From a virus: 64,000 nucleotides of DNA. The first letter of the stretch is position 1. Each line of letters begins with the position of its first letter. The notes below the pieces were generated by a model. It was not told the DNA's origin and made no database searches. It was given only the letters and a program-made list of their open reading frames with translations. The stretch is from positions 1 to 64,000 of the IMG/VR virus record IMGVR_UViG_3300009488_000018. One strand, given 5' to 3'. The position numbers and the translations under genes are program-made. Of the stretch, positions 6,990 through 28,457 are shown one piece after another.

Positions 6990-8513
6990 TTAATCTTCTT
7001 CATAACCACCCGCTTCTGAGCCCCCAACACTGAATATAAGCCCATCAGAAACTGTAACTTTAAAATTTACACCATCATCAAAATAACCTTCCCAATTTCC
7101 ACTAGCTAACTTAGTTAGCCCAGCTTTTATTGAAGATGCTGAAACTTCAAAAGTACCAAGCCTGTCAAGGTAATCATCATGATCCTTTTGATGTTTCTTA
7201 TTATAAGCATCCAATAATCCCCCAAGAGGAATACTCCAAAGATTGGAAGGGTTACCTAATGCTACTTTGAGTTCGTCCCGCCTAAATATGTAGAAAGTAT
7301 TTGTTTGATGACTAAGAATCATAAAACCAGCTAATGAATTACCAGCAATAGCAGAAAAAGTACTTTGTCCAACAGCATCGCTACTCTCTGCTCTCAAACG
7401 CACCCAGCTCCTACCAGAATCTGCGGAATACCAAACTCTACCAGTAGAAGCAGTATATCTACCTATAGCTAAAAATATCTCTTTGGTGTAGGCCCAAATC
7501 GCGACGTCACCCACTCCAGTACCAACCATAAAATCTCGTTTAGTCCAGGTTGCTCCCCCATTCTCAGTAACAGAAACAAACGTATCGTTCCCACCAGAAG
7601 AATCGACATAAATTATAACCATATTGTCGGCATCAACAACAGACAAATCGGACAACCCGTATGTACCACCAGTATCAATATCAACTTTCGTCCAACTAGT
7701 ACCTCCATCAAGAGTCTTATGAAAGTGTAGATTGCTTGCTTCAGAGACTGTAACATAAATTAAATCAACACTAATAATCTCGCATCTCACAGCTTGGGGA
7801 GAAGTATATGCTGTTGCATAGACCTTAACTGGGGATGACCAATTCGCACCACTATTGACTGACTTTGTAAGATAGAGACAATCATCGACCCCACTTATGA
7901 AAAATACGTAGATTGTGGTCCCATCCAATGAACAAATGTCAGCACACCTGACATGAATATTACTAGAGACCTCTTTCAGACCAGCCCAGTCAACCCCAGC
8001 ATTAACAGACTTCTTGAAATAGAGCTTGTCACTATCTTTTCCAAAAATGACTAGAATGTTATTAACATCTATAGTCTCAAGCCTGATTGTATCTTGAGCA
8101 GCCAGATCATGTATAAGAATTGCAGCTGGCCAATTTGCACCATTATCTACAGTCTTCCTCAAAGCAGGTTTTGTATCCCAATTAATATGAGCTACATAAA
8201 ACACATTATCATTAACGGCATTAACATCGGCTTGTTGAGGAGATGCACTACCTATGTTAGGGCCATATGTAGGCATAGGAGTAGGTATAAAATGCCCATC
8301 TAAGAGTAAAATATCTGTATTCTGGGCATGCTTCTTAGAGATTGAATCAAGATAGTTAGCCCTAGTTAAAGAACCACCACTTTTAAATCCCAAAGAAGTA
8401 TCCTTGACATTATTAATACTTTTGTTGTTCATATCAAGGTTAGAAGCAGCTGGATTTGTCATAACACCTGCAACAGCAGAAGCTGGTATTGCTGGTTTTG
8501 TCCGTACTGCCAT
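6990..8513 (-). CDS. Tail protein with Asp-box (BNR/sialidase-like) repeats
   Basis: A 507-residue protein. After an N-terminal part (MAVRTKP ... LDMNNKSINNVKD) similar to fibre attachment segments, six or more Asp-box repeats of the SxDxGxxW type are visible: TVDNGANW, SVNAGVDW, SVNSGANW, TLDGGTSW, TENGGATW and SADSGRSW. Such repeats mark beta-propellers of sialidase or photosystem assembly type. In a phage tail cluster this suggests a glycan-binding or glycan-cleaving tailspike. Catalytic Arg/Glu residues of true sialidases cannot be assigned, so binding is the safer call. Confidence 0.7.
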   Translation of the reverse strand: MAVRTKPAIPASAVAGVMTNPAASNLDMNNKSINNVKDTSLGFKSGGSLTRANYLDSISKKHAQNTDILLLDGHFIPTPMPTYGPNIGSASPQQADVNAVNDNVFYVAHINWDTKPALRKTVDNGANWPAAILIHDLAAQDTIRLETIDVNNILVIFGKDSDKLYFKKSVNAGVDWAGLKEVSSNIHVRCADICSLDGTTIYVFFISGVDDCLYLTKSVNSGANWSSPVKVYATAYTSPQAVRCEIISVDLIYVTVSEASNLHFHKTLDGGTSWTKVDIDTGGTYGLSDLSVVDADNMVIIYVDSSGGNDTFVSVTENGGATWTKRDFMVGTGVGDVAIWAYTKEIFLAIGRYTASTGRVWYSADSGRSWVRLRAESSDAVGQSTFSAIAGNSLAGFMILSHQTNTFYIFRRDELKVALGNPSNLWSIPLGGLLDAYNKKHQKDHDDYLDRLGTFEVSASSIKAGLTKLASGNWEGYFDDGVNFKVTVSDGLIFSVGGSEAGGYEED

Positions 8514-22468: not shown

Positions 22469-22821
22469 GGGGGTGAATGGCTTCGACGGGGACAATGAAA
22501 TATATGTTGCGTATCGCGGGCGGCTGACCGTGTTAAAACCAGTCAAATTAAACATAGTCGCAGATGACTATTACCAAGAGATGCGCTTAGCTGCGTAACT
22601 CCGTTCTTTTCCCGTCCCTCTCCGTGGACTCGAAAAGAGCGTCGACTTTAACGGAGATAGCTTGATTTTCTGTCCACAAAAATCAGGCGAGACACTGTGG
22701 ACTTAATCTTCATACAAGTTGTCTGGATACGAGTAAGAAGATGACATTTATAATCCAGAATATATACGTAGAAGCATGTGTTGAAAGTTTTCGGACTCGG
22801 GTTCGATTCCCGACACCTCCA
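22469..22821 (+). ncRNA. ssrA: tmRNA (transfer-messenger RNA)
   Basis: The 5' end GGGGGTGAATGGCTTCGAC and the 3' end with a T-arm GGTTCGATTCC and CACCTCC pair into a 7-bp acceptor (one G-U). The tag frame begins GCA at 22560, preceded by the usual AGTC, and encodes ADDYYQEMRLAA before TAA at 22596. Length (about 353 nt) is normal. Discriminator A is followed by TCCA rather than CCA, so CCA would be added by the host. tmRNA with SmpB frees stalled ribosomes and tags nascent proteins for ClpXP-type proteases. Phage copies are known but uncommon. Confidence 0.93.
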
Positions 22822-22843
22822 TCCAAGGTTACTGGAGAAACTA

Positions 22844-25914: not shown

Positions 25915-26127
25915 GTGACAAAAATGATAGAACTATATATACAGAGTCCTAAAACGGAGAAAATTAAAACCGCAAAAGGCACAGTGGACTACTCTGATTG
26001 GTTAGAACAAGAAAGGGACCGGATTAGTTCAGACCCGACTCGGACTGTAGAAGTCAGGGAAAGTAAGAGTGGTGATCAAGTATCTCTCTGGGTTGATGTT
26101 ACGAAACGTAAACGTATCAGAGTATAG
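25915..26127 (+). CDS. Tandem-paralogue small protein A (GTG start)
   Basis: A 70-residue product: MIELYIQSPKTEK, KGTVDYSDWLEQERDRISSDPTR and a WVDV end. GTG start after AAAGGAGTATAACTT. The next gene is a clear copy. Between them lies a short block of the ARYNN 5-bp repeat. Unknown function. Confidence 0.6.
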   Translation: MTKMIELYIQSPKTEKIKTAKGTVDYSDWLEQERDRISSDPTRTVEVRESKSGDQVSLWVDVTKRKRIRV

Positions 26128-26143
26128 CCCAGCGGAATGCAGC
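26113..26143 (+). repeat. ARYNN 5-bp repeat, satellite block 1
   Basis: AGTAT AGCCC AGCGG AATGC AGCAA AGTAA read in phase, the same 5-bp period as the large array at 27041-28385. It overlaps the end of one paralogue and lies in the leader of the next. Confidence 0.65.
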
Positions 26144-26176
26144 AAAGTAATTAATTTTAAACGGAAGGAGTTACTT

Positions 26177-26377
26177 ATGGGAGAAATGATAGAATTATAC
26201 AAACAAGGTTTCAAAACAGGAAAAGTTCAAACTATAAAAGGTACAATGGACTATATTAATTGGTTAAAGCAGGAAAGAGACCGGATCGGCTCAGACCCGA
26301 CTCGGATTGCAGAAGTCAGGGAAAATAAGATCGGAAATCGAGCGTCCCTTTGGGTTGATAATCTTGTAGAATATTAA
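26177..26377 (+). CDS. Tandem-paralogue small protein B
   Basis: ATG 26177 with CGGAAGGAG. The 66-residue product repeats the neighbour: MIELYKQGFKTGK, KGTMDYINWLKQERDRIGSDPTR and SLWVD. Flanked on both sides by ARYNN repeat blocks, which suggests these blocks take part in duplication or regulation here. Confidence 0.6.
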   Translation: MGEMIELYKQGFKTGKVQTIKGTMDYINWLKQERDRIGSDPTRIAEVRENKIGNRASLWVDNLVEY

Positions 26378-26388
26378 CATACTTAAGG

Positions 26389-26456
26389 AGAGCGGAGTAT
26401 AGCAAAGCCAAACACAGCCGAGCGCAACCTAGCGAAACATAGTTAACTTAACGAGA
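26389..26456 (+). repeat. ARYNN 5-bp repeat, satellite block 2
   Basis: About 12 units in phase (AGCGG AGTAT AGCAA AGCCA AACAC AGCCG AGCGC AACCT AGCGA AACAT AGTTA ACTTA). It fills the whole gap between the paralogue and the 190-aa gene. Confidence 0.7.
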
Positions 26457-26469
26457 AGGAGAAATAGTT

Positions 26470-27042
26470 ATGAAAGAATGGCAAATAGACATAAAAGTTA
26501 AGGGTCTGACTGATATTATGTTTGATCGTTTTTACGATCAAAGTAAAACGAAAAGACCACCCGAAGCAAAAATGTACATCAACGATGGTATTATTTCATT
26601 TCCTAGTATGAATATACGTGCTTTCCTAACTAGCCAGAGGAATGGTGGGTGTGTTCGAGTATTTGAAGGAAAGAACTGGGCAGACTATTATCGTGTCTGT
26701 CAGTCCTTTGTGAAAATCGAGGACTGTTTTATTCCATTCCTTGATGAAAATGAACAGCCAATTAAGTTCGATAACTTCAAGGAGAAAACGTTCATATATA
26801 CTTGTAACGTATTGGTAGGACACGGACAAAACGTAAGTCGTCAAACTATTTCAAGACCAGTACTTAGACTGCCCTGGTTTCTCGAATTCCAAATTATACT
26901 CTTCGAGAACGAACTTATAAAGTTAGAAAAACTCAAAGAGTATTTCCAACGAGGTGGTAAGCTGATTGGCTTTGGAAATGGGAGACCTCAGGTTGGCCAG
27001 TTCGAAATTATCAAATGGGATGTAAGGGAATTACAATCATAG
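26470..27042 (+). CDS. Hypothetical protein, 190 aa, next to the repeat array
   Basis: Good GAAGGAG. Contains SRPVLRLPWFLEFQIILFEN and a C-terminal GGKLIGFGNGRPQVGQFEI, a glycine-rich GxGxxRPxxG loop that recalls RAMP/Cas7-like folds, but this resemblance is weak. The TAG stop is part of the first ARYNN unit. Lying between two repeat blocks, it is a candidate to bind them. Confidence 0.6.
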   Translation: MKEWQIDIKVKGLTDIMFDRFYDQSKTKRPPEAKMYINDGIISFPSMNIRAFLTSQRNGGCVRVFEGKNWADYYRVCQSFVKIEDCFIPFLDENEQPIKFDNFKEKTFIYTCNVLVGHGQNVSRQTISRPVLRLPWFLEFQIILFENELIKLEKLKEYFQRGGKLIGFGNGRPQVGQFEIIKWDVRELQS

Positions 27043-28385
27043 CTAAGCCAAGTGAAGCAAAGTATAGCGGAGCCTAGCGAAACGAAGCCCAGCATATGAA
27101 ACGTAGATATCACTTAAGTTGAAAACTTCTAAGTGGTATCTACGTTCTAAGTTAGAAGTTTAAAATAAAAAATTGTAGTCTAACGGAGCGGAGTAGAGCG
27201 GAGCATAACGCAACTTAGTATAACAAAGCATCGCATCAGTTAAGAAAACAATGAAATAGAAAAATACTGGAAGTACTCCCTCAGCCGAGCAAAACACAGC
27301 TGAGCAGACCTAAGTGGAGCAGAGCATAACAAAGCATAGTAAAAACAACGAAATAAAAACACTGAAAGTTTTGGATCGAAGAGGAGCGAAGCTAAACGCA
27401 GTAAAACGCAGCTAAGCTGAGCCGAGCGAAACGAAGCGTAGTTTAATACTAGTAAAATAGAAGAAGTGAAGTATTAAAGATATTTTTTCAGTAACTAAAA
27501 CTAAGCAGAGCGGAGCTGAGTACAGCAAAACAAAACGGAACGGAGCGACACATAGCATAGCATAGTAAAAATAACGAAAAATATAAATGTTATCAGAGCG
27601 CAGTGAAGCTGAACACATCAGAGTATAGCCAAGCGTAACTAAGATCAGCGAAGCAAAGAATAAAAAACGACAAAAAGTAAAATGGATATTCCGGAGCGCA
27701 GCGAAGTTTAACCAAGCGCAGTCCAGCCAAGCACAACCCAACAAAGCAAAGCATAGTCACAACGAGAAATGGAATACTAAAACATTTTTCAGAGCGGAAC
27801 GAAACAAAGTGCAACGAAGAATAACGAAAAAGTTTCAAAGCGCAGCTGAGTATAGCGCAACACAACTAAACCAAGACCAGCTTAGCAAAGCACAGAACAA
27901 CGAAAAATACCAAAATATTTTCATAGCATAGTGAAACAAAGCACAGATAAGCATAACTTAGCTCAACATAGCAAAACTCAACTGAGTAAAGTAATAGTAA
28001 AAGAATAACGAAAAATACTAAAATATTTTCATAGCAAAACTAAGCACAACAAAGTCTAGCTTAGCGCAGTTCAACCTAGCGAAACGAAGCAAAGCATAGC
28101 AAAGAACGAAAAATAAAATACTAAAATATTTCTATAATACAGCCTAGCTGGGCGAAGCATAACTTAGCTAAACGAAACGAAGCGGAGCAAAGCATAGCAA
28201 AGAACGACAAAGAGTAAAATAATGAATATTCCGCAGCTGAGCGAAGCAGAATAGAGCAAAGCGGAACACAACAAAGTACAGCGGAGCATAGTAAAGAACG
28301 AAAAATACTAAAACATTCACCTAGCGAAGCCTAACCAAGCAAAGTACAGCGGAACTTAACTTAGCGAAGCAAAACGAAACAACGT
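27041..28385 (+). repeat. Large ARYNN 5-bp-periodic array with AACGAAAAATAC spacers
   Basis: About 1.35 kb of non-coding DNA. Roughly 13-14 blocks of some 60-80 bp are built from 5-bp units A(G/A)(C/T)NN, mostly AGCNN, for example AGCTA AGCCA AGTGA AGCAA. The blocks are parted by AT-rich spacers based on AACGAAAAATACTAAAATAT (near 27571, 27899, 28007, 28106, 28297 and others), giving a higher-order period near 100 bp. Positions 4-5 vary freely, so this is not a simple microsatellite. Stops fill all rightward frames. The array lies between the converging small-gene block and the capsid operon. Role unknown: partition, origin, packaging or a long RNA are possible. Confidence 0.85.
27100..27160 (+). 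promoter_or_regulatory. Two alternative hairpins (attenuator-like)
   Basis: AACGTAGATATCACTTA (27100) pairs with 27130-27146 over 17 bp with one G-U and a GAAA-capped inner stem. A second pairing, AACTTCTAA (27124) with TTAGAAGTT (27152), uses part of the first hairpin, so the two exclude each other. It lies within the start of the repeat array. Confidence 0.5.
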
Positions 28386-28431
28386 AAAATTGTCACCTGA
28401 CCCATTTCTGAGTTAGGTGACAATTTTTTTG
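28386..28431. terminator. Bidirectional terminator
   Basis: A long stem AAAATTGTCACCTGAC/GTTAGGTGACAATTTT with T-tract on the right and A-tract on the left. It can stop rightward transcription through the repeat array and leftward transcription of the capsid gene. Confidence 0.8.
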
Positions 28432-28457
28432 TTTCGAGTTCGAGTCTCGTCTATTTA

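Follow-up and report, generated by a model that had tools for sequence, protein, structure and literature searches.

A proposed ARY-core variant of the VIPR system in a Gp23-type phage

We analyzed bases 1-64000 (hereafter the window) of the 124,327-bp virus record IMGVR_UViG_3300009488_000018, which belongs to a Gp23-type phage and carries a long stretch of 5-base units reading in phase as A(G/A)(C/T)NN, or ARYNN. We propose, with a probability of about 94%, that this stretch is the vrRNA array of a phage-encoded Viral Interference Programmable Repeat (VIPR) system that has an ARY core and most likely serves the RNA-guided repression of competitor genes. The vipr gene, the fold of its product, the array, the association of the two across viruses, and an NN composition that matches codon positions 1 and 2 in the sense direction all come from the present analysis.

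VIPR systems were described in 2026 (PMC13142463; bioRxiv 2026.04.26.720920 v2), and the initial annotation of this DNA, which held that no phage element like the array had been described, is superseded on this point. A VIPR system comprises a ~20-kDa RAMP protein, Vipr, and vrRNAs of ~100 nucleotides (nt). Each vrRNA consists of 9-16 pentanucleotide repeats, with GGY (“or a related consensus”) and a hypervariable NN in alternation, and ends in a 3' tail (PMC13142463). The trinucleotide is described as a scaffold and the NNs as pairing with double-stranded DNA while leaving out one base at a time, in most cases that at the codon wobble position; the Vipr-vrRNA complex is reported to repress genes of competing phages and satellites, and an accessory gene, vap, is typically found near vipr (PMC13142463). 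VIPR is a newly described, minimal form of RNA-guided DNA recognition that has been proposed to precede CRISPR. The window locus has a Vipr protein, vrRNA-type pentanucleotide tracts, and blocks that flank vipr, are non-coding and lie on its strand. By protein, array and placement it is a member of VIPR, and its array with an ARY core is a variant of that system.

The array and the adjoining Vipr protein

The repeat units form 15 in-phase blocks on the + strand, one at 26391-26445 and 14 within 27041-28382. Fourteen of the 15 blocks hold 11-14 units and the remaining one holds 5, leaving 13 full-sized blocks in the downstream series. The first three bases of the 178 units are AGC in 93, AAC in 47, AGT in 28, AAT in 3 and another triplet in 7; the last two bases are free, and 51 distinct pentamers occur. 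The initial annotation had described units in phase, mostly AGCNN and fixed at three of five positions, that are not copies of each other and are separated by AT-rich spacers based on AACGAAAAATACTAAAATAT, and our counts agree with each of these points. Tandem Repeats Finder leaves the array unreported, and it is therefore not a microsatellite, as had also been claimed. A further claim, a higher-order period near 100 bp, holds on average (block-to-block spacing is mostly 86-114 bp), but the phase is not kept across the spacers.

The periodicity stands well above background. The best segment score is 14 in the array, whereas 200 first-order Markov controls from the same region never exceed 5, and the local spectral power of 2.1 at period 5 and 2.3 at period 2.5 is about three times the genome-wide value of 0.71. 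The - strand and the rest of the 124,327-bp record yielded no ARYNN blocks. A second public contig, IMGVR_UViG_3300024432_000012, carries an identical array (100% identity over 2570 bp). This contig may derive from the same virus, and hence its independence is only partial. The initial annotation encompassed neither the 11-unit block at 26391-26445 nor a 6-unit run at 26121-26150, and it made no connection between the array and either the upstream block or the gene at 26470-27042.

Judging from sequence matches and a structure model, the product of this gene is a Vipr protein, a small RAMP homologous to the Vipr family of SUSP1. As a single sequence, the 190-aa protein matches PDB entry 36pp_D, “SUSP1 Vipr protein” (phmmer, E=5.8e-6). 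A profile built from its 28-member family matches the same entry at E=1.3e-50, with the CRISPR RAMP Csm5 next at E=0.3. The protein matches phrog_4652, to which 27 of the 28 family members belong. An AlphaFold2 model (pLDDT 83, pTM 0.82) finds Csm3/Cas7 RAMPs as its top Foldseek matches (E~1e-6). Searches of named phages by tblastn gave no match with the window Vipr or with that of a related IMG/VR locus, L121, and 134 records, SUSP1 among those reached, with the more central Vipr of locus L034.

Vipr genes and arrays in other viruses

A search of IMG/VR for (ARCNN)8 by pattern alone, with proteins ignored, returned at least 120 stretches in which simple satellites and diverse arrays are mixed. 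Among the matches listed, a Vipr open reading frame is present in 31 of 40 loci with diverse NNs, versus 1 of 80 loci with low diversity. AGC arrays lie on the same strand as vipr and AAC-reading arrays lie antisense to it, so that the RNA core of the latter is GUU; the one exception is L030. In a tree, the window Vipr groups with those of L121 and L109, whose arrays are AGC, and of L207 and L208, whose arrays are GGC/GGY (support 100/99). Since AGC, GGC/GGY and ARY arrays occur in one Vipr clade, the core has changed inside this clade, and the window array has the most relaxed core seen there. L121, L109, L207 and L208 resemble the window in having blocks directly before and after vipr, but they have only 2-3 blocks each and a core fixed as AGC or GGC, and they come from small contigs that are not of a Gp23 myovirus. 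A three-sequence Vipr profile recovered two further clade members in IMG/VR and no further one in GTDB genomes. In 23 viruses related through the capsid gene (62-77% protein identity), the complete records contain no Vipr and the surroundings of the capsid gene contain no array, and the VIPR system is therefore an accessory module.

One of the nearest described counterparts is the type II system of Escherichia phage SUSP1 (KT454805.2, our locus L202; PMC13142463). As in the window, one vrRNA block lies upstream and several lie downstream of vipr in a phage genome, with 9-16 pentanucleotide repeats, a fixed trinucleotide alternating with a free NN, and ~100-nt spacing. Our pattern scan of the SUSP1 genome places GGY blocks before and after vipr, in the same places as in the window. 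The window locus is nevertheless set apart from type II (SUSP1 / P. fulva), with no GGY unit, no SUSP1-type tail fold and, in a Vap1 search that lacked a positive control, no vap found. It has an ARY core and 15 blocks where SUSP1 has a GGY core and 4 vrRNAs, its tails lack an evident stable fold, no SUSP1-like Vap was found, and its Vipr is distant from that of SUSP1, with a single-sequence search matching region 75-180 only.

Several other loci in this collection merit description. The core is GUU on the vipr strand, not GGY or AGC, in L013, L032, L037, L047, L052, L061, L066, L096, L101, L103, L104 and L127, making GUU arrays a consistent second core type. In L055 a single unbroken run of 71 AGCNN units (1215-1569, reverse-strand numbering) adjoins the Vipr gene and is perhaps an array of the “staggered”, overlapping type. 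Diverse AACNN or AGCNN arrays with no Vipr recognised in the examined stretch occur in L018, L049, L058 and L094, where the protein may lie beyond that stretch or be too diverged. Lastly, a calcineurin-like metallophosphoesterase (PF00149) adjoins vipr and an AGC array in L121 (3866-4651) and L124 (471-1241). The L121 protein has a weak SbcD/exonuclease match, and we regard the PF00149 protein of these two loci as a candidate nuclease-type accessory protein.

Guide composition, targets and competing explanations

By analogy with the SUSP1 work, from which vrRNA processing, binding to Vipr, the 1-nt skip and transcriptional repression are carried over, the ARY-core system of the window phage would work as follows. 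The + strand array would be read into RNA, probably together with vipr, and the transcript would be cut, or RNAs would be individually started, to give ~100-nt vrRNAs of 11-14 ARYNN repeats with an AT-rich 3' tail. One Vipr subunit would grip each 5-nt unit through its ARY trinucleotide and present the NN dinucleotide. The NNs would then recognise double-stranded DNA by interrupted pairing (NN-x-NN-x-NN) in which the bases left out are at codon wobble positions, and the resulting ribonucleoprotein would repress genes of competing phages or satellites.

The composition of the free positions fits the 1-nt-skip rule; this evidence is compositional, with no target demonstrated. The first free base of the window units (A.34, C.15, G.31, T.21) closely follows codon position 1 of the same genome (A.35, C.14, G.31, T.21), the second resembles codon position 2, and positions 1-2 in the sense direction are the best of six registers. 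The mean log-odds of sense over antisense is 1.55 per window guide, where 1.27 +/- 0.47 is expected if all guides are sense and 0 at random; random picks reach 1.55 in 0.1%. The same signal is found in 59 AGC guides and, when they are read on the strand of vipr, in 38 GUU guides; this speaks against the core itself as the source of the bias. For the window alone, a dinucleotide model brings no gain over its own marginals, and for the AGC and GUU sets the gain is slight. These data suggest that the guides carry mRNA sense. Such guides would base-pair with the template strand of the DNA and be unable to bind mRNA.

A broader generalization is more tentative, and we put it forward as a possibility somewhat less likely than its opposite: that ARY-, AGC- and GUU-core guides, in this and other little-studied lineages, are almost all of mRNA sense (the sense fraction is estimated at 1.00 in the three sets), and that the core of the RNA is open to rewriting (GGY, AGC, ARY, GUU) together with Vipr. 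If this is true, guides pair with the template strand only and cannot act on mRNA, their acquisition may be strand-biased and perhaps start from transcripts, and core rewriting gives orthogonal guide scaffolds.

A number of results count against assigning the array to a VIPR system. It contains no GGY unit, the core being ARY. The tails share no common stable fold like the SUSP1 pseudoknot, and their folds are mostly weak. A search of the window phage genome with SUSP1 Vap1, made without a positive control, gave no match. In the phage's own genome and the collected loci, the 14 longer window guides show no excess of matches at any skip from 0 to 3. Exact 8-unit scans of IMG/VR with guides v10, v02, v05 and v08 gave 2, 9, 7 and 3 matches, none extending over the rest of the guide, and a 10-unit scan of GTDB genomes with v05 gave no match. 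With all guides and skips 0-2, the own genome and collected loci likewise yielded no excess beyond each array's own site, and a decoded-peptide search of own and related proteins stayed at control level. A weak lead comes from positions 7614-7652 of locus L180, which lie in an open reading frame (AELQAPQTLNFIT) and agree in frame with 20 of 26 bases of v08 when one nucleotide is skipped, a match not above chance.

Other known systems use regularly spaced contacts with RNA. Cas7 grips the CRISPR RNA every sixth base. Class 1 CRISPR Cas7/Csm3 RAMP complexes share their fold with Vipr (Foldseek) and, by analogy, Vipr may likewise form an oligomer on a guide RNA with pairing interrupted at regular steps; their unit, however, is 6 nt with 5 readable bases, versus 5 nt with 2 readable bases and a single small RAMP in the window. 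CRISPR-Cas itself was rejected, as identical repeats with unique spacers are missing and no match to a cas family came from the neighbouring genes that were searched. The RNA targets of TRAP (MtrB) consist of (G/U)AG triplets with 2-3 nt spacers and, like the window array, repeat their triplets at 5 nt, with at least 11 per site. The period and the 11-14 units per block would thus fit an RNA decoy or sponge whose triplets wrap the 11-12-subunit ring of a TRAP-like protein. But TRAP, which has another protein fold and targets that are not guide RNAs, needs (G/U)AG, and in the window any base can precede the A (A.41, T.22, C.19, G.18) and about 50 of the 178 units have AA in place of AG, on which grounds we rejected a TRAP target. 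The linked protein has the RAMP fold and matches Vipr, and a decoy has no need for NNs with codon 1-2 composition, so we give the ring decoy very little credence.

We consider it just as improbable that the array acts as double-stranded DNA, for example as a centromere, partition site, origin, packaging signal or nucleoid scaffold that is bound at each half turn of the helix, as the initial annotation had considered in placing the units on alternate DNA faces. Dense periodic sites in an intergenic region at a convergent transcription switch would suit such an element. Its units, however, all lie on one strand, array orientation is fixed relative to vipr across viruses (except L030), and the array stays beside vipr and not beside replication or packaging genes, with none near the capsid gene in the capsid relatives. 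The suggestion of a modified-guanine target is unsupported. The ideas of regular base presentation in a transcript and of a long non-coding RNA pointed in the right direction. A slightly better, though still poor, chance is left for a decayed VIPR locus, in which a genuine array has acquired its ARY core by mutational decay (G to A and C to T from AGC or GGC) and the system no longer works. AAC and AGT are indeed transitions of AGC, there are one short block and one remnant, and no vap was found in the uncontrolled Vap1 search. Yet the vipr frame is intact, and AGC, AAC and AGT account for 168 of the 178 units, with core transversions almost absent; AAT occurs in 3 units where about 9 are expected if both changes were independent. 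Because the core is kept while the NNs are free, selection still acts, as the initial annotation had supposed for the phase and the three fixed positions.

Organization of the locus and significance

The array follows a series of + strand genes, and the 6-unit run, vipr, the blocks v01-v15, the hairpin after v02 and the tails are on this strand. Two tandem paralogous small open reading frames (25915-26127 and 26177-26377; 70 and 66 aa, 66% identical) sit just upstream of the first block; their family matches are weak (E about 0.02, families of unknown function), and they are possible accessory-gene candidates. Between them the 6-unit ARYNN run (26121-26150), either a vrRNA remnant or a short guide, overlaps the 3' end of the upstream frame. 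Pattern scanning places v01 (11 units) at 26391-26445, and the spacer after it contains the ribosome-binding site of vipr. The vipr gene (26470-27042), identified by the profile, PDB, phrog, AlphaFold2 and Foldseek matches given above, encodes a protein with a G-rich loop (GFGNGRPQVGQF).

Downstream, v02 (27041-27095, 11 units) starts at the vipr stop codon and is directly followed by a strong hairpin at 27100-27146 (region 27096-27176 folded, -23.1 kcal/mol, z -5.5). The same scan then gives v03 (27177-27231, 11 units), v04 (27283-27342, 12), v05 (27385-27449, 13), v06 (27499-27568, 14), v07 (27597-27656, 12), v08 (27695-27759, 13), the short v09 (27793-27817, 5), v10 (27839-27893, 11), v11 (27925-27994, 14), v12 (28033-28102, 14), v13 (28136-28200, 13), v14 (28235-28294, 12) and v15 (28323-28382, 12). 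By alignment, many blocks end AGCAA-AGCAT-AGYAA and continue into a related AT-rich tail, AACGAAAAATACTAAAAYATT; the tails have AACGAAAAATACTAAAATATT in common yet vary, and the spacer at 28295-28322 (AGAACGAAAAATACTAAAACATTCACCT) is one example of about 12 related tails. A terminator-like hairpin with a T-run (28376-28435, -29.5 kcal/mol, z -8.1) closes the array, and beyond it the major capsid gene (Gp23, PF07068; 28458-29930) lies convergent on the - strand. An Rfam scan matched no family, hammerheads included, and BLAST searches of the array and capsid region for near and distant DNA matches in phages found none. Elsewhere in the window are a phage-encoded tmRNA at 22469-22824 (tag ADDYYQEMRLAA) and, at 53-62 kb, several tRNA genes.

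The window adds to VIPR a large array of 15 blocks, a relaxed ARY core and a Gp23-type phage. A plain DNA pattern search, made without knowledge of the protein, recovers VIPR loci and offers a way to find arrays. The shift of the core within one Vipr clade, among GGC, AGC and ARY, makes the protein-RNA recognition code directly testable, and the codon-position signal allows guide orientation to be read without any target being known.
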